Below are positions 18,284 through 28,296 of a stretch of DNA of 64,000 nt, in pieces. The position numbers were made by a program, and so were the translations under genes. Position 1 is the stretch's first letter; the number at the start of each line of letters is the position of its first letter. Source of the stretch: Clostridia bacterium (GTDB lineage Bacteria > Bacillota > Clostridia > Oscillospirales > CAG-272); NCBI GenBank assembly GCA_017482355.1, contig JAFUNJ010000001.1, forward strand, positions 1-64,000. Reading direction: 5' to 3'. Below the pieces are notes generated by a model, which did not search any database, was not told the DNA's origin, and was given only the letters and a program-made list of their open reading frames with translations.

Positions 18284-18312
18284 TTGACAACAACGAAAGG
18301 TTGTGATACAAT
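18284..18312 (+). promoter_or_regulatory. Strong promoter upstream of the cohesin gene
   Basis: TTGACA (18284-18289), 17 bp, TACAAT (18307-18312). The predicted transcript begins about 165 nt before the cohesin ATG and first crosses a dead signal-peptide reading frame at 18341. A second TATAAT at 18431 lacks a clear -35. Confidence 0.8.
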
Positions 18313-18340: not shown

Positions 18341-18400
18341 ACGAAAAGACTTTTAGCACTGATAGTGGCGTGGTTAATGATGCTGATCTCTGCCGCTTGA
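18341..18400 (+). pseudogene. Relic signal-peptide reading frame (start lost, ACG)
   Basis: AAAGGAG (18327-18333) is followed by ACG, then 18 codons spelling KRLLALIVAWLMMLISAA and TGA. This is a textbook lipoprotein or secretory leader except that ATG has become ACG and a stop cuts it at the cleavage region. It may be the stump of a secreted-protein gene replaced by the cohesin gene, or a non-AUG leader peptide. I favour a relic. Confidence 0.45.
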
Positions 18401-18485: not shown

Positions 18486-19730
18486 ATGAAAAAGAGAATT
18501 CTGTTTACTTTAATTTTTTCCCTTCTGCTCTCGGTGTTTTTGAGCATCAGCGCCCTTGCGGCACAGCACGGAACGCTCTCACTTTCCGCGTCAGGTGCGG
18601 TGAAAGCGGGCGATACGGTCACCCTCTCGGTGAAGCTGACGGGGGCTGAAAGCATAGACGGTATTGCCGTCACCCCTATCTACGACGAGACGAAGTTTGA
18701 ATTGACGGGAGGTTCCTGGAAGGTCAACGGTGTCATCACCGATTTCAGCGTAGATACCAAGGACGGAGTTATTGCCTTTGCAGAGGGAACGGCTGTCAAT
18801 ACCACTATCCTTACCTTCACACTTAAGGTGAAAAGCGGAGTCGAGGCAGGAGCTTATACGGTTGGTTGTTCGGCAGAGGTAAGCAGTACAGATAAAGCGA
18901 AATCCACCCTCAATGCCGAAACGCAGGTGAAGGTCAGCTGCTCGCACAGCTTTACGGTAAAGAATACCGATTCCAAATATCTGAAGAGCGCCGCGACCTG
19001 CAGCTCTGCGGCGACCTATTACTATAGCTGTAGCAAGTGCGGCGAGAAGGGAACGACCACCTTCAAGTCCGGCTCGGCACTGACGCACACCTTTGATCAG
19101 AAGAATACGGCGGAAAAATACATTCATACCGCAGGCACTTGTACCAAGGCGGCAGTCTACTATTACAGCTGTAAATGCGGCTCAAAGGGAAGCGAGACCT
19201 TTGTAGGTGCCGATCCCGACCATCGCTACGCGGAGACGTGGAGTACAGATAAGGATAATCACTGGCTCGAGTGCTCTGCTTGCGGCGAACGCAAGGATCA
19301 GGCAGCTCACGTTCCCGGTCCCGAAGCCACTGAGGACAGCGCACAGGTCTGCACTGCTTGTGGTTACGAGATCGCCCCTGCAATTGCCCATCAGCACGAT
19401 TTTACAAAGCATTGGTACAGCGACGACGCGACCCACTGGGGTAAGTGCGGTTGTGAGGAAGAAAGTCAGCCGACCGCACACACCTGGGATAATGGAAAGG
19501 TCGTCAGTGAACCTACTGCAAAAAAGCAGGGCGCCGTCGTCTACACCTGTACAGACTGCGGCAGAACCAAGCTTGAATATACCGATCCCGATCCCTCAAA
19601 GAGCGATCGAACCTCTTCCGAAAAGGACGGTGACGGCTCCTTTGGCATCGGCGCTTTAGTCGGAGTGCTGGGCGGAATCTTAGTCGGTGCTGTCGGAGTA
19701 TATCTGACGCTTGTAAAGCGTAAAAAGTAA
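18486..19730 (+). CDS. Membrane-anchored cohesin protein with Cys modules
   Basis: 414 residues. A signal peptide (cleavage near ALA-A, residue 25) is followed by a cohesin-like domain (about 27-150: GAVKAGDTVTLSVKL, GIAVTPIYDETKFEL, ILTFTLKVKSGVEAGAY), the fold that binds dockerins in cellulosomes. Residues about 155-370 hold several Cys modules (YYYSCSKCGEKG, HWLECSACGERKD, VYTCTDCGRTK). A Gly-rich transmembrane helix with a Lys/Arg tail (about 385-414) anchors it to the membrane. The next gene encodes a dockerin protein, so this is the likely scaffold that holds it on the cell surface. No LPXTG motif is seen. Confidence 0.85.
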   Translation: MKKRILFTLIFSLLLSVFLSISALAAQHGTLSLSASGAVKAGDTVTLSVKLTGAESIDGIAVTPIYDETKFELTGGSWKVNGVITDFSVDTKDGVIAFAEGTAVNTTILTFTLKVKSGVEAGAYTVGCSAEVSSTDKAKSTLNAETQVKVSCSHSFTVKNTDSKYLKSAATCSSAATYYYSCSKCGEKGTTTFKSGSALTHTFDQKNTAEKYIHTAGTCTKAAVYYYSCKCGSKGSETFVGADPDHRYAETWSTDKDNHWLECSACGERKDQAAHVPGPEATEDSAQVCTACGYEIAPAIAHQHDFTKHWYSDDATHWGKCGCEEESQPTAHTWDNGKVVSEPTAKKQGAVVYTCTDCGRTKLEYTDPDPSKSDRTSSEKDGDGSFGIGALVGVLGGILVGAVGVYLTLVKRKK

Positions 19731-19773
19731 ACCGATCTCCTTTATTACATAAGACACATAAGAGGTGACTTTC

Positions 19774-22700
19774 GTGAAACAGATACGAATTTGGAGTATC
19801 TTTTTAGTGATTTCAATGCTGTTGCAGTTTGGCGCGGGGGCGTTCCCCGTGTCTGCCACCGACGGTAATGAAGAGACACATATACATTCCGAGGAGGAGA
19901 ATTTACAGTCTTCTCTATCCGATTCTTCTGCTTCTGAGGCGGGCGATACGGACGGCGACGGCGACGTGGACGTTGCCGACGCAGTATATCTGTTGCGTCA
20001 CGTGCTGAAGCCGCAGGATTATCCCGTAACCGCGGAGAGCGATATGGACGGCGACGAGGATACAGACGTTGCCGATGCTGTTTATCTGCTCCGCCATACG
20101 CTGATGCCGAGCAAGTATCCGCTTAAGGTACATGCTCACATTGTCGTCAATCAGCAGGCGGTGGCGGCTACCTGTACCCGTTCGGGTCTGACTGCCGGCA
20201 GCTACTGCTCGGATTGCGGCGAGATCCTTGAAGCACAGAAGGTGCTTCCTCCCAAGGGACATACTTCAGAGGTGGTCGAGGAGATATCTGCCGACTGTAC
20301 TCAGGACGGTATGGTGAAGGCGCACTGTGACGTTTGCGATACTGATTTTCTCAGCGAGCTGACCTACGCAAAGGGTCACGATTACGGTCAGGAGCAGATA
20401 CAGACCGAGGCAACGTGTACGACAGACGGTATTTCGCTCTACGTCTGTGCAGAGTGCGGTCACAGTGAATCTGCGGTCGTACCCGCAAAGGGACATACCC
20501 TTATCGCTTCGGGAACTACCGAAAACGGAACCGTGATCTATACCTGTACCGATTGCGGCCTTGAAACTCAGGACAGCAGTACGGTCGATTCGCACAAGGA
20601 AGATCACGCTTTTGGCTGTGACAAGAATTTTACTTTCGATATTATTTATGACGGCGACGAGGAGTACATCCGCGATCATCTTTTGATCAGCGACGCCTAT
20701 TACGTTGATCCTACTACCGAAGAGCGCCTTCCCTATGATCTCGAATATAAAGGGGATGGCAGATGGACGGTCAGCCCGTCTGAGGATTACGAGGGCGGCA
20801 ATACCTATTGCGCTAAGATAGACGGAGATCTGAAATTTGCAGATTACGAGTCGGAGGAGCTCTATTTTTCGATTGCCGACGATGTTCACAGCGATATTAC
20901 GCTTTCCGACGGCATTATATTTATTCCCATGCCTGCGATCGGTACCGTTGACCGTCAGCAGTATCTCTTGGAGACCAATACCGATAACGAATTTTTCTAT
21001 CTCACTATGCCGGATGACGGCACGCTGAGTCAGGAGCACGTCGGTCGTATCGTCTGTGCCGGTGCGTATAAGAGCATGGACGAGTTCACAGCCGATAACT
21101 CCAAGGAGTGCTACTTCGGTAAGCTCGAAAAGCTTTATGCTACCGCAGACGGAAAGATCCTTTTGGTGCTCAGCTGTCCTGAGCTTTACGAGATCTACTC
21201 CGAGCTTGATATTTACGAAAACTACATAGTAGAGCTTACGGAAGAGGATATACCCGAGGATATTTCGGAGCAGGCGGTATACGCGCTTCGACACAGCGAC
21301 GACTTCGGTGAATTCGTCACCGGTATCACGCTGGCGGCAAAAGCTTATGCCGATGGCATAGGTGCGACTGCGGTCGGTGTAGATGACCTCAGCTTTTTGG
21401 ATGATATGGGACTGATACCCTCGTTCAAGATCGAAAACGACAACAAGCTGATCGTTTCGATTCAGGGTAACTTGCCCATCAAGCTCAAAAATAAAGAGGG
21501 CAAGGATTGTGGTACCGTTACCGTTTCCTTCCTCACAAAGGCGGAGTATTCCTTCACAGTGACGGGTGCTTGCGAGCTAAAGTATTTCTTAGGTATCCCC
21601 ACAGGCGTGAAGAAGTTTGACTTCAATGTGACTCAAACCTCTTCATATACGCTGGAATTTTCCGTTAAGGTAGCTATTGATCCCCTTTCCAAGCCGGAGG
21701 GAAAATCTATTGTAAAAACTCCTCTGGGTGTTTACCACCTGAAGGACTGTCTGACCATTTCAGCATTCCCTAAGGGCTCGCTTACTGCTGTGACAAATGA
21801 TCAGATGGACGAGGCATACCGTAATTCCGACGGTTCGGTCGATTTGGATTGCCCCGTTTGCAACCCCACGATGTCCTATCTGAAAAAGAACGTGTATGTT
21901 GCGAACAAGGATACTGAAACTATCCATCGCTTCGTATGTGCAGAGAGCGACAGAGTTGATGCGACCAACGTAGAAGTACTGGAATCAATTCCTCTTGTTA
22001 TGGACTACACGCTCTGCGAGACATGTCTTCAGGGTAAGTCAAACACGGAGGAGCAGAACTTTGAAGAAATGCTGGTAGACGCGCTTCGCTATCAGAATTG
22101 GAGCGATATTGCCTCTAGCGTAAAAAAGGCGCTTACCAAGAGCGATAAGCCCGCAGAAAAGGAATCCGAATTTACCCTGATGAAGTTGCCGATCCCCTTC
22201 GCAGGCATTTTCCAGCTGACACTGGAAGCCGAGATGGTGATCAGCTTCAAGTTCTCGGGAAGTGTATCGCTGACTTATACGAATTCCACCACCACAGTTG
22301 CGGGTGTGCGTCTTAATTCAAGCAACACTCTGGAGCCGTACTCCTCACGCACGATGACCGAGAAAAATACGACCTTTAAGGTTGCGGGCGGTCTTGACGT
22401 GAAAGCGGGTATCCGCTTCCAGATGAACGTCGGCATGAGAGGATTCCTCTCCAAGTTCATCTATATCAAGCTGGGCGCAGAGGTCGGCACCTACTCGGAC
22501 CTTGACGGTATTCTGTTCGCAGAGGGCACGGTAACGGAAGAAGGCGGTCAGACCGATAAGACAAGCTCCGCCTTTATAGCTGCCTACTGGGAGATGGGTC
22601 TGTACGGCGATATCTTCTTTGATTACAAGGTAGTATTCTGGGGAAATAAGTTCTCCCTTTTGGGCAGTGACAAGCGTTTGCCGATTTTGGCTTTCGGTTA

Positions 22701-25700
22701 TGACAAGGTATATTACGGCTACAGTCCCGATGCTGAGCTGATAGAGGCGACCGGGCACAGTATAGATCTGACGTCTCATTCTATTCTTATCGCAAACGCC
22801 TTTGACGTTAAGAAGCTCTCCTCCTCAAAGGAGACGCTGAATATACTCGGAGTCAAGAACGAATATGACGTAATAATAGCCGTTTTGGATGAAAACGGAG
22901 ATCCAAGTCCTTATTGCACCGTTCAAAACGGCGTGATCACCATACGTGACGATGCGCCGTGCGACCTTACCCTTACCGTTGTGATCAAGGTGAACGGTAA
23001 TAATGATGCAGTAGATACCGTAGCAGATTTCTTCAAGAACGGATATACTGTCGGAGACGATCTGTACAAACTTCCCGAATATAAGTTCTATATCCACGTT
23101 ACCGACCATTCTATAAGCGAATGGGAGGAATACGAGGCGCCTACCTGTACCGAGGACGGAACCGATTGGCGGTACTCCACCTGCGATTGCTCTGAGGAGG
23201 AGTTCCGCGTTGTTTCGGCGCTCGGACATCAGGAAGTGATCGACCACGCATATCCCGCTACCTGTACCGAGGACGGCGCGACCGAGGGCTCGCATTGCGA
23301 ACGCTGCGGCGAGGTTCTGATCGCTCAGGAGATCCTGTACGCATTCGGACATTCTTATACAGATGAATTCACCTGCCACGACCGTCCCTGCCAAAACGAT
23401 GGTTGTACCCACGTAGAGGTGGCTACCACGGAGCACCGTTACAGCGATTGGATAGACGTACCTATGGGCGAATGCGCTCTGCAGGATTATCACGTCCGCT
23501 ACTGCATTGACTGCCGACATTCTACGACTGATCTCGGCACGGACGTTCCCGTACAGCACATGCACGACATCGGTATCCCCGAGGTGGTCTACCCGACCTG
23601 TACCGAGGACGGTTACGTAATCATTCAATGTACGCGTTGCGGAGAAGAGCTGAAAAACGATGTTCTGATAAAAACAGGTCATGATCTGGGAGATTACCTC
23701 ATAACAAACGGCGGACATTATCAGAAGTGTTTGAATAATGGTTGTGATTATCAAACCGATGTTGAAGCGCACGAATTTGACCACGACTGCGATACCGACT
23801 GTAACGAATGCGGCTTTACTCGCGTCACCTCTCACGTTATGAAGACCGAGTATAGCAAGGATGGCAGCAATCACTGGTTAGAATGTGATATATGCGGCTT
23901 TGACGGCGAAAAGGAAGCCCACAGCTATAAGGCAAACTGTGTTATCTGTGATGTCTGCGCTTACCTAGGCGGTGGCTCACATAGCTGGAGTGACGTTTAT
24001 AACAGCGACGACGGCTATCATTGGCTTGTCTGTGGGGAGTGCGGCGTTAACGGCACTCAGAGCGCACATACCTACGAGGATGACTGCACGCTTTGCGATA
24101 TATGTGACCGCGCAAGCGGAAAGAGCCACAGCTGGAGCGAGGACTATGAGCAGAATGGAAGCCATCACTGGCGCGCATGTAAGAATTGCAGTCAGACCGA
24201 TGCAAAGGATGCTCACAGCTATTCCTTGTCCGAGCCCATACATCTTGCAACCAAGGCAACCTGTCAGAATGCGGCGACCTACTATTACTACTGCGTATGC
24301 GGTAAGCTCGGAAGCGACACCTTCTCCTACGGAGAGGTTGCTGAGCATAGCTGGAACACCGACTATACGGAAGACGGCGACCGACACTACCGTAGCTGTA
24401 AATACGGCTGCGGAAGCGTGATAGATGAGGGAGCTCACAGCTACGGCGATTATAAGGTAACAAAGAACGCTACCTGTGCCGAGACCGGGACAGAGACCCG
24501 TTATTGCACGCTTTGCGATAGCTCCGATAGCAGAGAGATACCTAAGAAGGATCACGCCTACGGAGACGATTATGAGCACGACGATGTCAGCCATTGGATC
24601 GAGTGCGGCTCCTGCGGAGAAAAGAAGGATCAGGACTTCCACCGTCTGGGCGACGATCTGATCTGCGACGTTTGCGGCTATGAAACTACGGCAGAGCACG
24701 ATTGGGATCCCGTCTACCGTTTCGATGACCAAAAGCACTGGCTTGTCTGCCTAGACTGCGGCATTATCACAGGTGAGCAGGCACATCAGTTTACAAATGA
24801 CTGCGACACCGACTGCTCGATATGTGATTATACACGTACCACGGAGCACGAATGGAACGCAAGCTATTCGAATGACTCTACTGCACACTGGATCGAGTGT
24901 GGCGAGTGCGGAGAGAAAAAGGATCGCGGCGATCATGTATATGATCACTCTTGCGATACCGACTGTAATATTTGCGGTAAGACCCGTAATATCACTCATG
25001 AATGGGGTACTGAGTACAGCAAGGATTCCGGCGGACATTGGCGCGTTTGTACTGTCTGCGGTGAAGAAGAGACAAAGACCGCTCATATCGGCGGATCAGC
25101 TACCTGTACCGAAGCGCCTATATGTACGACCTGTAAATCCGCCTATGGATCTGCAAACGGTCACGATTACAGTGGTGAGATGCTGTATGACGATACCCAT
25201 CACTACAAGCTCTGTGAGAACGGATGCGGTACAGAGACCGCAAGAGAAGTGCATAAATTCGGCGATTATCAGGTGGTTTTGACTGCTACCTGTACACGAG
25301 TTGGTGAGAAAAGACGTTACTGCGCGGACTGCTCGGCAAGTGAGACCAGGGATATTCCCATGACCGAGCATGATTGGAGTGATACTTGGCAGAAGGACGA
25401 TACCTATCACTGGGTAGAGTGTAATGACTGCGGTCTTAACGGCGAAAAGCGTGTCCACGTCTGGGATAACGCTTGCGATACTGACTGTAACGAATGCGGT
25501 AAGGTGCGCACCGTTACTCATCAGTGGAAGGTCGACTACGCATCAGACGAAAGCAGTCATTGGCAGATCTGCGAGAACTGCGGTGCTACCGGTGATCCTT
25601 CCGATCACGTCTGGGACAATTCCTGTGATACGGAATGTAACGAATGCGGTAAGACGCGTACCGTACAGCATCAGTGGGGCCTTAATTATCAGACCGACGA

Positions 25701-28296
25701 CGAAAAGCATTGGTACGAATGCGAGATCTGTCACGAAAGACAGGGCGAGGGCGCTCACGTGGACGGCATGGCAACCTGTACCGAGCGCGCAATCTGCGCG
25801 ATCTGTCATCAGCCATACGGAACGACTACGGATCATAGCTACTCAATGCGTGTAGAAAACAGTGATTACCTCAAGCAAGCCGCCACCTGCGAGGGAGAGG
25901 GCATTTACTACTTCTCCTGCGTCTGCGGCGAAAAGGGTACTGCTACCTTTACGGTGGCTGCTCTCGGTCACGACTGGAGCACGCAATACAACTCTGACGG
26001 CACCTATCACTGGCTGGATTGCAGCCGTTGCTCCGAAACGGATGGCAAATCCGTTCACTCGGGCGGAAACGCTACCTGCCAAGATAAGGCGGTCTGTACG
26101 ACCTGCGGCAAGGCATACGGTGACTTCGGAGATCACGACTACAGCGTGAAGAATAATGAGTATAAGGCGTCTGATGCGACCTGCGAGAGCCCTGCTTATT
26201 ATTACTATACCTGCTCATGCTGCGGAAAAGCGGGAAATACCACATATGCGGTAGGCAATTCTCTCGGACACAGCTGGAGCAATAAATATACCGTCACCGA
26301 CAGCAATCATTATTATGAATGTCTCAACGGTTGCGGCGATCACCTTTCGGAGGGTGTGCATACCTACGGTGATTATCTCCAAACGACTGCGCCGACATGT
26401 ACCTCAAAGGGCGAAGAGAAGCGCACCTGTACAGCTTGCGGTCATGAGCAGTATCGCGAAGTCGAAATGCTTCCTCACGAGATGTCCGATGAGGAGGAGA
26501 TAGTAACCGACATTGTCGAGGGAGACGGGGAATATCTGTATATCCATAATATCGTCTTCCGTTGTAAGAATTGCGACTACTATGAAGTTCAGTCAACCTC
26601 AACTGCACATATTCATGAAGCAGTGGATTATATCCTCGGTACGCCTCCGACCTGTACCGAAAACGGCTTGACCAGCGGCGTAATTTGTGCCGTCGCGGGC
26701 TGCGGTGAGGTTCGCATAGCGCAAGAGACAATAGACGCACTCGGACACGATTACGTCGAGGGCATCTGCTCGCGTTGCGGAGAACGCGAGGAATACTATT
26801 CCAAGGGACTTGAATACGAGCTCAGCAGCGACGGAACATACTATATCGTGACGGAAATCGGTACTTGTACCGATACCGAGCTTGTTATTCCTTCCTCCTA
26901 TAACGGAAAACCCGTTAAGGAAATCGGAACATCGGCGTTCTACGGAGCGAATATGTTTACAAGCGTGACTATCCCCGAAAACATAACTAAGATAGGAGAT
27001 AATGCATTCGGCTATTGTACAAATTTGGAAAGGCTATACATCAATTCTATAGAATTGGAGGATTTGACTTATTCAAGTGATGCTTTTTACTATGCCGGAC
27101 GAGATTCCGGAGGATTTTCGGTAACATTTGGTGCTTCGGTTACTAAGATTCCCAACAACTTGTTCTATTCGTATTATGACTATACAAATCAAATCTATTT
27201 TGTCAATCTGAAGGAGGTTGTGTTCGAAGAGAACAGCTCCTGCAAGCGTATAGGTGACGGCGCATTCCGTTTCTGCGCAGGATTGACTCAGATTGAATTG
27301 CCGGAGGGACTACAGTATATCGGCGCAAGTGCCTTTGCAGATTGTTATAATCTGATAGACGTAACAATGTATGATGAAGTCCTTGAGATCGGTGTCCGCG
27401 CATTTTCGTGCTGTGCATTCCAAAGTATACGGCTCAGCAACAATCTGACGACTATAGGCGATTATGCATTTGAATCCTGCGACTATCTGGTCAGCGTTGT
27501 CATTCCCGACAGTGTTAAGTATTTGGGCGATGCTGTGTTCTACTACAGTATTTCTCTCAAGGAGATCACTATCGGAAAGGGCGTTCTGGATTTAGGAGAA
27601 AGCTTGCTTTGGTACTGCGAAGCACTTGAAGTGATAATATACAATGCAACCAATGCTAACGATTTTGAAAATGATCTGTGTAAGCCAATCATATATATTA
27701 CCGGAAATTCAGGTAACGGTATTGAGCTGATCGTTGGCGCTAACGTGCAGAGGATTCCTGCCAATTTGTGTAATGACGAAGGACGCTCGAATCTGGTTAA
27801 ACTAACATTTGCAAGCGGCAGTGTTTGCCAAGAAATCGGAGACGATGCGTTTTCTTATTGTGAAAAGCTGACCGCGGTTACACTCGGTTCATGCTTGACA
27901 CGCATCGGCGAAAGAGCATTTTTGTGGTGTACTTCTTTGACTTCCATTAAGATTCCAAACAGTTTGACTACCATATCCACGGAAGCATTCGCTTGCAGCG
28001 GACTTCAAACCGTTACGCTTGGCAGCGGCTTGAAGACGATCGATTTCTGTGCATTCGGTTATTGTGAAAGTCTAAAGTCGATCACTATTCCCGCCAGCGT
28101 GAATTACATTGGAGCATATGCTTTTGACAATTGTGTTTCGCTTAAGACGATCACGTTCTCGGGAAGCGCACCTGAAATGGATTACGAGCCGTTCTGCCGA
28201 GTTACAGCAACGGTCTATTACCCGAGAAGTAATAGCACTTGGACTGCTGAGGTTAAGGAGTATTGCGGCGGCACCCTCACCTGGATAGCAAAATAA
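19774..28296 (+). CDS. Giant secreted dockerin / Cys-module / BspA-LRR protein
   Basis: 2840 residues from GTG 19774, preceded by AGAGGTGA; the GTG at 19765 lies inside that site. Order: signal peptide; type I dockerin with two Ca-loops (DTDGDGDVDVADAVYLLRHV at 58, DMDGDEDTDVADAVYLLRHT at 90); a few Cys modules; a region without recognised domain (about 280-1090), which includes two Ada-like H-x4-C..C-x2-C segments (YHLKDC..CPVC, IHRFVC..CETC); about two dozen tandem Cys modules (about 1105-2340) of the style HHWxxCxxCG; and BspA/LRR_5 repeats to the end. No C-terminal anchor. Dockerins normally lie at the C-terminus, so the N-terminal place is unusual. It probably docks onto the cohesin protein 43 bp upstream. 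Confidence 0.88.
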   Translation: MKQIRIWSIFLVISMLLQFGAGAFPVSATDGNEETHIHSEEENLQSSLSDSSASEAGDTDGDGDVDVADAVYLLRHVLKPQDYPVTAESDMDGDEDTDVADAVYLLRHTLMPSKYPLKVHAHIVVNQQAVAATCTRSGLTAGSYCSDCGEILEAQKVLPPKGHTSEVVEEISADCTQDGMVKAHCDVCDTDFLSELTYAKGHDYGQEQIQTEATCTTDGISLYVCAECGHSESAVVPAKGHTLIASGTTENGTVIYTCTDCGLETQDSSTVDSHKEDHAFGCDKNFTFDIIYDGDEEYIRDHLLISDAYYVDPTTEERLPYDLEYKGDGRWTVSPSEDYEGGNTYCAKIDGDLKFADYESEELYFSIADDVHSDITLSDGIIFIPMPAIGTVDRQQYLLETNTDNEFFYLTMPDDGTLSQEHVGRIVCAGAYKSMDEFTADNSKECYFGKLEKLYATADGKILLVLSCPELYEIYSELDIYENYIVELTEEDIPEDISEQAVYALRHSDDFGEFVTGITLAAKAYADGIGATAVGVDDLSFLDDMGLIPSFKIENDNKLIVSIQGNLPIKLKNKEGKDCGTVTVSFLTKAEYSFTVTGACELKYFLGIPTGVKKFDFNVTQTSSYTLEFSVKVAIDPLSKPEGKSIVKTPLGVYHLKDCLTISAFPKGSLTAVTNDQMDEAYRNSDGSVDLDCPVCNPTMSYLKKNVYVANKDTETIHRFVCAESDRVDATNVEVLESIPLVMDYTLCETCLQGKSNTEEQNFEEMLVDALRYQNWSDIASSVKKALTKSDKPAEKESEFTLMKLPIPFAGIFQLTLEAEMVISFKFSGSVSLTYTNSTTTVAGVRLNSSNTLEPYSSRTMTEKNTTFKVAGGLDVKAGIRFQMNVGMRGFLSKFIYIKLGAEVGTYSDLDGILFAEGTVTEEGGQTDKTSSAFIAAYWEMGLYGDIFFDYKVVFWGNKFSLLGSDKRLPILAFGYDKVYYGYSPDAELIEATGHSIDLTSHSILIANAFDVKKLSSSKETLNILGVKNEYDVIIAVLDENGDPSPYCTVQNGVITIRDDAPCDLTLTVVIKVNGNNDAVDTVADFFKNGYTVGDDLYKLPEYKFYIHVTDHSISEWEEYEAPTCTEDGTDWRYSTCDCSEEEFRVVSALGHQEVIDHAYPATCTEDGATEGSHCERCGEVLIAQEILYAFGHSYTDEFTCHDRPCQNDGCTHVEVATTEHRYSDWIDVPMGECALQDYHVRYCIDCRHSTTDLGTDVPVQHMHDIGIPEVVYPTCTEDGYVIIQCTRCGEELKNDVLIKTGHDLGDYLITNGGHYQKCLNNGCDYQTDVEAHEFDHDCDTDCNECGFTRVTSHVMKTEYSKDGSNHWLECDICGFDGEKEAHSYKANCVICDVCAYLGGGSHSWSDVYNSDDGYHWLVCGECGVNGTQSAHTYEDDCTLCDICDRASGKSHSWSEDYEQNGSHHWRACKNCSQTDAKDAHSYSLSEPIHLATKATCQNAATYYYYCVCGKLGSDTFSYGEVAEHSWNTDYTEDGDRHYRSCKYGCGSVIDEGAHSYGDYKVTKNATCAETGTETRYCTLCDSSDSREIPKKDHAYGDDYEHDDVSHWIECGSCGEKKDQDFHRLGDDLICDVCGYETTAEHDWDPVYRFDDQKHWLVCLDCGIITGEQAHQFTNDCDTDCSICDYTRTTEHEWNASYSNDSTAHWIECGECGEKKDRGDHVYDHSCDTDCNICGKTRNITHEWGTEYSKDSGGHWRVCTVCGEEETKTAHIGGSATCTEAPICTTCKSAYGSANGHDYSGEMLYDDTHHYKLCENGCGTETAREVHKFGDYQVVLTATCTRVGEKRRYCADCSASETRDIPMTEHDWSDTWQKDDTYHWVECNDCGLNGEKRVHVWDNACDTDCNECGKVRTVTHQWKVDYASDESSHWQICENCGATGDPSDHVWDNSCDTECNECGKTRTVQHQWGLNYQTDDEKHWYECEICHERQGEGAHVDGMATCTERAICAICHQPYGTTTDHSYSMRVENSDYLKQAATCEGEGIYYFSCVCGEKGTATFTVAALGHDWSTQYNSDGTYHWLDCSRCSETDGKSVHSGGNATCQDKAVCTTCGKAYGDFGDHDYSVKNNEYKASDATCESPAYYYYTCSCCGKAGNTTYAVGNSLGHSWSNKYTVTDSNHYYECLNGCGDHLSEGVHTYGDYLQTTAPTCTSKGEEKRTCTACGHEQYREVEMLPHEMSDEEEIVTDIVEGDGEYLYIHNIVFRCKNCDYYEVQSTSTAHIHEAVDYILGTPPTCTENGLTSGVICAVAGCGEVRIAQETIDALGHDYVEGICSRCGEREEYYSKGLEYELSSDGTYYIVTEIGTCTDTELVIPSSYNGKPVKEIGTSAFYGANMFTSVTIPENITKIGDNAFGYCTNLERLYINSIELEDLTYSSDAFYYAGRDSGGFSVTFGASVTKIPNNLFYSYYDYTNQIYFVNLKEVVFEENSSCKRIGDGAFRFCAGLTQIELPEGLQYIGASAFADCYNLIDVTMYDEVLEIGVRAFSCCAFQSIRLSNNLTTIGDYAFESCDYLVSVVIPDSVKYLGDAVFYYSISLKEITIGKGVLDLGESLLWYCEALEVIIYNATNANDFENDLCKPIIYITGNSGNGIELIVGANVQRIPANLCNDEGRSNLVKLTFASGSVCQEIGDDAFSYCEKLTAVTLGSCLTRIGERAFLWCTSLTSIKIPNSLTTISTEAFACSGLQTVTLGSGLKTIDFCAFGYCESLKSITIPASVNYIGAYAFDNCVSLKTITFSGSAPEMDYEPFCRVTATVYYPRSNSTWTAEVKEYCGGTLTWIAK

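Follow-up and report, generated by a model that had tools for sequence, protein, structure and literature searches.

Why would a bacterium keep a cohesin gene directly beside a dockerin gene when no cellulosome is in sight? The question is raised by two genes, P0001 and P0002, on a 64,000-nucleotide stretch of DNA (positions 1 to 64,000 of contig JAFUNJ010000001.1, hereafter the window) from a member of the Clostridia (Oscillospirales, CAG-272), the genome of which is of the ruminant-gut type, 1.69 Mb in size and 77.5% complete, and holds, according to Pfam, two cohesins and two dockerins. We consider it likely that the products of the two genes form a dedicated and detachable pair for surface display, in which an anchored single cohesin displays a giant protein with no cellulosome in view. 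The domains, the topology signals, the adjacency of the genes, the recurrence of such pairs and their matched subtypes are the basis of this reading, and from them we infer binding, its dual mode, co-transcription and the role of the cargo. The features are collected in Table 1, and both open frames run as an earlier reading of the letters alone, here called the initial annotation, had placed them.

P0001 was first described as a protein with a cohesin-like domain, Cys modules and a C-terminal membrane helix, and on this Pfam, a structural model and hydropathy agree. The Pfam score of the cohesin is 31.9 bits against a cut-off of 24.1 (34.6 bits in the genome scan), so that a cohesin match above background, on which the initial annotation had staked its case, is indeed there. 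An AlphaFold2 model of residues 27-156, built on a 31-row alignment, has nine strands and a mean predicted local distance difference test score (pLDDT) of 83. When this model was compared with the PDB by Foldseek, ranks 1-10 were all cohesins (E 1.1e-5 to 8.8e-5; template modelling scores 0.48-0.72, normalised by query length), and other β-sandwiches such as nanobodies and pilins started at rank 11. A cohesin profile (A4) matched 49 PDB sequences at E≤0.01, most of which are by name scaffoldins, cohesins or anchoring proteins; the ScaE chain 2zf9 is among them (E 1.2e-4), a match that we take to show membership of the cohesin family and not orthology with ScaE. The residues KRKK directly follow the hydrophobic segment, no LPxTG-like motif was found in P0001, and its cohesin is the only one in the protein, which is thus not the polyvalent scaffoldin by which a cellulosome is recognised.

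The description of P0002 as a protein with a signal peptide, a two-loop dockerin near its N-terminus, Cys modules and a BspA tail, and with no recognised anchor, also stands. The signal peptide lies ahead of the dockerin. Dockerin_1 (PF00404) at residues 59-108 scores 24.9 bits in the genome scan, which is above the cut-off, and 18.3 bits in the search with the whole protein, which is below the cut-off of 22.9, and the profile check once proposed for this domain was therefore only partly in its favour. The residues DVADAVYLLRH stand in both loops exactly as first read, the two 22-residue repeats are identical at 17 of 22 positions, and in a numbering of ligand and recognition residues that we presume to be the usual one, positions 1, 3, 5, 9 and 12 are D and positions 10, 11, 17 and 18 are VALR in both. 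Such symmetric loops suggest the dual-mode binding that had been proposed, with two equivalent orientations. The protein has 150 cysteines and 39 CxxC motifs. No membrane segment beyond the signal peptide and no LPxTG-like motif were found in it, and it has no lipobox, because its first Cys comes only at residue 137. A glycosidase or carbohydrate-binding family, said from the outset to be lacking from both gene products, was not found at E≤0.1 with Pfam or NCBIfam, and all NCBIfam matches were far under cut-off. Since a ribosome-binding-like AAGAGG, read by eye, lies 8 nucleotides 5' of the second GTG (19774), this codon may be the start of P0002 instead of that at 19765.

Table 1. Coordinates of the features discussed (positions in the window, except where a locus handle of another contig is given).
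Feature	Position	Strand	Remarks
Candidate sigma-70-like promoter, TTGACA-17-TACAAT	18284..18312	+	upstream of the cohesin gene; 11/12, TG ahead of second hexamer; pattern scan only
Cohesin gene P0001	18486..19730	+	414 amino acids; signal peptide, cohesin, CxxC modules, C-terminal membrane helix, basic tail
Cohesin domain of P0001, residues 31-146	18576..18923	+	subtype B; Pfam PF00963 and model
CxxC/HW Cys modules of P0001	18936..19580	+	4 CxxC motifs; resemble the modules of P0002 (sequence matches between P0001 and the P0002 frame)
C-terminal membrane helix of P0001, residues 382-412	19629..19721	+	hydropathy
Dockerin gene P0002	19765..28296	+	2843 amino acids; start possibly 19774
Two-loop type I dockerin of P0002	19939..20121	+	subtype B; recognition residues symmetric, with DAVYLLRH in each loop
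N-terminal CxxC modules of P0002	20137..20565	+	four CxxC, residues 148-264
Central region of P0002, residues 268-1109	20566..23091	+	842 residues; no Pfam family
Long CxxC/HW module array of P0002	23296..26785	+	33 CxxC between residues 1178 and 2338
BspA-type leucine-rich repeats of P0002	26872..28296	+	Pfam LRR_5 (PF13306), 258 bits, three stretches; left edge by eye
M23 peptidase-Flg_new dockerin proteins of sister genomes	L101:9632-13927, L106:4146-8576, L108:5684-8182, L113:4248-6944		no listed cohesin within 3 kb

In the mechanism that we propose, P0001 would be exported and, with the helix at its C-terminus as membrane anchor, present its one cohesin outside, and P0002 would be exported without a recognised anchor of its own. 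The cohesin would then capture the N-terminal dockerin of P0002, presumably in a calcium-dependent manner, and the CxxC array, the central region and the BspA repeats would face outward. Judging from the BspA repeats and the CxxC array, the cargo probably serves in adhesion or ligand capture.

The pairing is not confined to this locus. Among 59 genomes scanned, the own genome included, Pfam cohesins occur in 35 and dockerins in 41, and six genomes have dockerins without any Pfam cohesin. In the 21 of them that have cohesins and at most four dockerins, 22 of the 38 dockerins have a cohesin as neighbour, i.e. within 3 kb, against 0.19 expected under uniform placement, and all 22 pairs are co-stranded. 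The dockerin comes before the cohesin in 17 pairs (15 of these with 132-167 bases between) and after it in five, four of which lie within one frame while the fifth is the window pair. No cohesin was listed near the remaining 16 dockerins, and beside three of these (G005:C23, G004:C42, G006:C6) one was found later. Across the neighbouring pairs the cohesin distances correlate with the dockerin distances. Besides the window, there are three loci at which a subtype B dockerin stands next to a related cohesin: one, laid out in the same way, belongs to another genus, and in the other two the gene order is reversed and the cargo is unrelated. The adjacency and subtype tests rule out a chance neighbourhood of cohesin and dockerin; the adjacency and the matched subtypes are real and best read as those of an anchor and its cargo.

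The same kind of gene pair, which was to be sought in related genomes, thus recurs, and cohesin subtype is found with dockerin subtype. The simplest model of the initial annotation, that the small protein holds the giant one on the surface, has gained from the real domains, the adjoining genes, the recurrence and the subtype match, and we keep the holding itself as a prediction. That this would be an uncommon use of the pairing was too strong a claim, as neighbouring pairs are frequent in the relatives examined and ScaE and CttA of Ruminococcus flavefaciens are a precedent. A complex of just two parts may be too simple as well: the host genome has another locus, C5, with an anchored cohesin and a cohesin-dockerin adaptor, and in genome G167 one subtype B cohesin was found against two subtype B dockerins, so that one receptor may there serve more than one cargo.

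We could also rule out that the pair is orthologous throughout the genus. In the other eight genomes of the genus, P0001 is matched only in part, mostly in the CxxC modules (one match, in G005, is of 22% over residues 8-187), and the central region of P0002 has no match in any of the eight. A cohesin-like domain at L110:8465-9925 (G006:C6) was missed by Pfam and by a 31-row profile, and was found only via the neighbouring dockerin. This cohesin is too divergent for Pfam, as is that of G004:C42 in the genome scan, and Pfam probably undercounts the cohesins of this order.

The central region of P0002 allows a comparison of anchors. Searches found homologues of it in 10 of 394 other genomes of the family and, mostly as partial matches (E≤1e-8), in 15 of 393 other genomes of an order-wide sample and 13 of 390 of a class-wide one, with two such genomes common to both samples. 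The N-terminus is readable in 22 of these proteins: five bear a dockerin (those of the window, G015, G373, G167 and G493), six a lipobox and two SLH domains, nine are without any of these, and not one of the 22 carries two of them. The SLH domains are N-terminal, at L153 and L172 (G601 and G1079; 118 and 117 bits), which means that one core occurs with different anchors. A dockerin standing in place of another anchor would be expected to give such a pattern of exclusivity, which is suggestive and not significant over all proteins (Fisher P 0.12, and 0.06 within the family; a P of 0.008 arises only if two family members bearing neither anchor are set aside). According to Pfam and profile A4, cohesins are present in the genomes of four of five dockerin bearers compared with one of five lipobox bearers, G493 and G188 being the respective exceptions. 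In G493, which is 99% complete, neither method found a cohesin, and its central-region protein with an N-terminal dockerin (L160:6229-7623, 49.7 bits) is thus a lone dockerin. The structural model of the central region is poor (pLDDT 64.8, predicted template modelling score 0.35). At about residues 645-755 of P0002 there are two H...C...CxxC patterns, YHLKDC...CPVC and YVANKDTETIHRFVC...CETC, kept in 7 and 9 of the 9 rows of alignment A3, respectively; they look like small metal-binding motifs, and we presume a resemblance to Ada-like sites.

It could be argued that the P0002 dockerin binds chiefly another receptor of the same genome, and that P0002 is a client of a small shared scaffold. The locus C5 (L005:8102-11239 in G000, the host genome), which is of a type that we call A, encodes two cohesins: an adaptor gene with a divergent N-terminal cohesin, an immunoglobulin-like (Ig-like) domain and a C-terminal dockerin is followed by an anchor gene with a cohesin, FN3, CxxC and a membrane helix. 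With 26 bits the anchor cohesin is above the cut-off in the genome scan; it is unlisted by whole-protein hmmscan and by profile A4, and aligns with clear cohesins of sister genomes. Type A dockerin and cohesin genes adjoin in all nine genus genomes, and the adaptor's own cohesin was found in eight by profile A4 and in the ninth, G004, by separate inspection. The host genome has further cohesins besides that of P0001; in this genome, incomplete as it is, cohesins come one per protein, in the window, the C5 anchor and the C5 adaptor, with a doubtful fourth match on C5 (E 0.0024). Additional dockerin proteins, away from the C5-type pair, are encoded in six of the eight sister genomes, and those of them that have no cohesin beside them need some shared receptor. 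They include, in each of G002, G005, G006 and G007, an M23 peptidase-Flg_new protein whose dockerin is C-terminal and which may be a cell-wall-acting client, as well as a subtilase and a β-helix-like protein in G006, sub-cut-off M26_N with Big_3 in G005, sub-cut-off FIVAR in G004 and a fragment in G008. The window dockerin differs from non-cellulosomal modules generally in having a candidate partner next door, matched in subtype. We hold it unlikely that C5 is the chief receptor of this dockerin.

A quite different role for the domains, with the cohesin-like one as a structural Ig-like domain, the dockerin-like one as a plain calcium-binding fold and their neighbourhood as a shared adhesin island, would fit the 6 of 59 genomes with dockerins and no Pfam cohesin, of which G493 is a case with the cargo family of P0002 itself. 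It is difficult to reconcile with the 22 of 38 neighbours where 0.19 are expected and with subtypes that stay matched across rearranged loci, and we find it improbable. We find it very improbable that the parts are left over from, or a reduced form of, a cellulosome with its enzymes encoded in the stretches that the assembly lacks. There is room for them, with 77.5% completeness, and dockerin numbers of 22-43 are seen in six genera that were sampled from the family, but just 1-4 dockerin matches occur in each of the nine genus genomes, of which three are 90% complete or more. Pfam names no glycosidase on the proteins at these 19 dockerin places (E≤0.05, in the window E≤0.1), some of which are cut by contig ends, and neither of the two dockerins of the incomplete host genome is on one; a cellulose-binding module elsewhere in that genome was not searched for. 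A classical cellulosome, with so few dockerins and none on a glycosidase in the genus scans, is ruled out. The display of P0002 by P0001 is thus the reading that we prefer.

Upstream and between the two genes, the letters would allow a common transcript. The gap is 34 bases long, and a pattern scan listed no plus-strand terminator between 18102 and 21372. The promoter candidate of Table 1 receives weak support, as there are 22 promoter-like sites in the scanned region against 13.0 expected. Taken together, a promoter-like site and a terminator-free stretch are compatible with co-transcription of P0001 and P0002, as we would assume. Just 5' of the cohesin gene, at 18344-18400 on the plus strand, is a short signal-peptide-like frame (KRLLALIVAWLMMLISAA) with a stop at its end and without an ordinary start codon, which may be the remnant of a lost gene for a secreted protein. 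At the other locus, the type A unit lies, by eye, near glycosyltransferases or a polysaccharide-exporter-like ABC pair in G000, G002 and G007.

In Archaeoglobus fulgidus, a cohesin gene and a dockerin gene of non-cellulosomal kind are neighbours. Peer et al. in 2009 reportedly found non-cellulosomal cohesin and dockerin modules in organisms without cellulosomes. The role of non-cellulosomal dockerins is called open (PMC2930009, PMC4081043). In R. flavefaciens the surface-anchored ScaE holds, by a single cohesin, CttA and other dockerin proteins including a peptidase, the genes adjoin in the order scaC-scaA-scaB-cttA-scaE, and the group-4 dockerins that bind ScaE are symmetric, with two equivalent orientations (PMC4081043, PMC5301203). 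The window pair is similar in that a single cohesin on an anchored protein stands beside a dockerin-bearing surface protein. ScaE, however, is sortase-linked and also carries a whole cellulosome, whereas P0001 has a membrane helix and no cellulosome in sight, and CttA, a protein with carbohydrate-binding modules, bears its X-dockerin at the C-terminus, whereas the dockerin of P0002 is N-terminal and its cargo is of the BspA/CxxC kind. Leucine-rich repeat modules are found on 28 dockerin proteins of R. flavefaciens FD-1, and some dockerins of this species may according to the authors serve other functions, perhaps cell-surface structuring (PMC2930009); that organism has a full cellulosome and a neighbouring private cohesin is not described in those passages, in contrast to the window (PMC2930009). 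The Limousia mucinolysome is a cellulosome-like assembly in gut metagenome-assembled genomes (MAGs) with a cell-wall-anchoring cohesin protein, from a screen that began with 4333 human-gut MAGs in which both modules occur and went on to mucin carbohydrate-active enzymes on dockerin proteins (PMC12997984). Unlike the window pair, it consists of dockerin-bearing enzymes of this kind and multi-cohesin scaffoldins. With BspA-like surface proteins P0002 shares the PF13306 repeats at the C-terminus; those proteins have a lipobox where P0002 has a dockerin, and by the central region lipobox-bearing homologues do exist.

The principle is thus already known, and the new part is the setting and the cargo, together with the subtype match and the recurrence of such pairs. 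Subtype B is not named in the accessible parts of the literature examined, and in open-access titles and the beginnings of abstracts we found no neighbouring non-cellulosomal cohesin-dockerin pairs as surface display in gut Clostridia. The accessible text of the Hungate survey (PMC6118326) lists no class in which both dockerins and cohesins are few, and the genomes studied here form such a further class, the two often side by side. The puzzle of the lone dockerin's partner becomes directly testable on small soluble domains, and if our reading is true, display and assembly work would gain new cohesin-dockerin pairs, which may be orthogonal. It is conceivable, and we lean neither way, that gut Clostridia have orthogonal single-cohesin docking ports, each beside its own dockerin protein and of its own subtype, by which giant and unrelated surface proteins would be displayed independently of a cellulosome, in a general and exchangeable manner, where lipobox, S-layer or sortase anchors serve otherwise.
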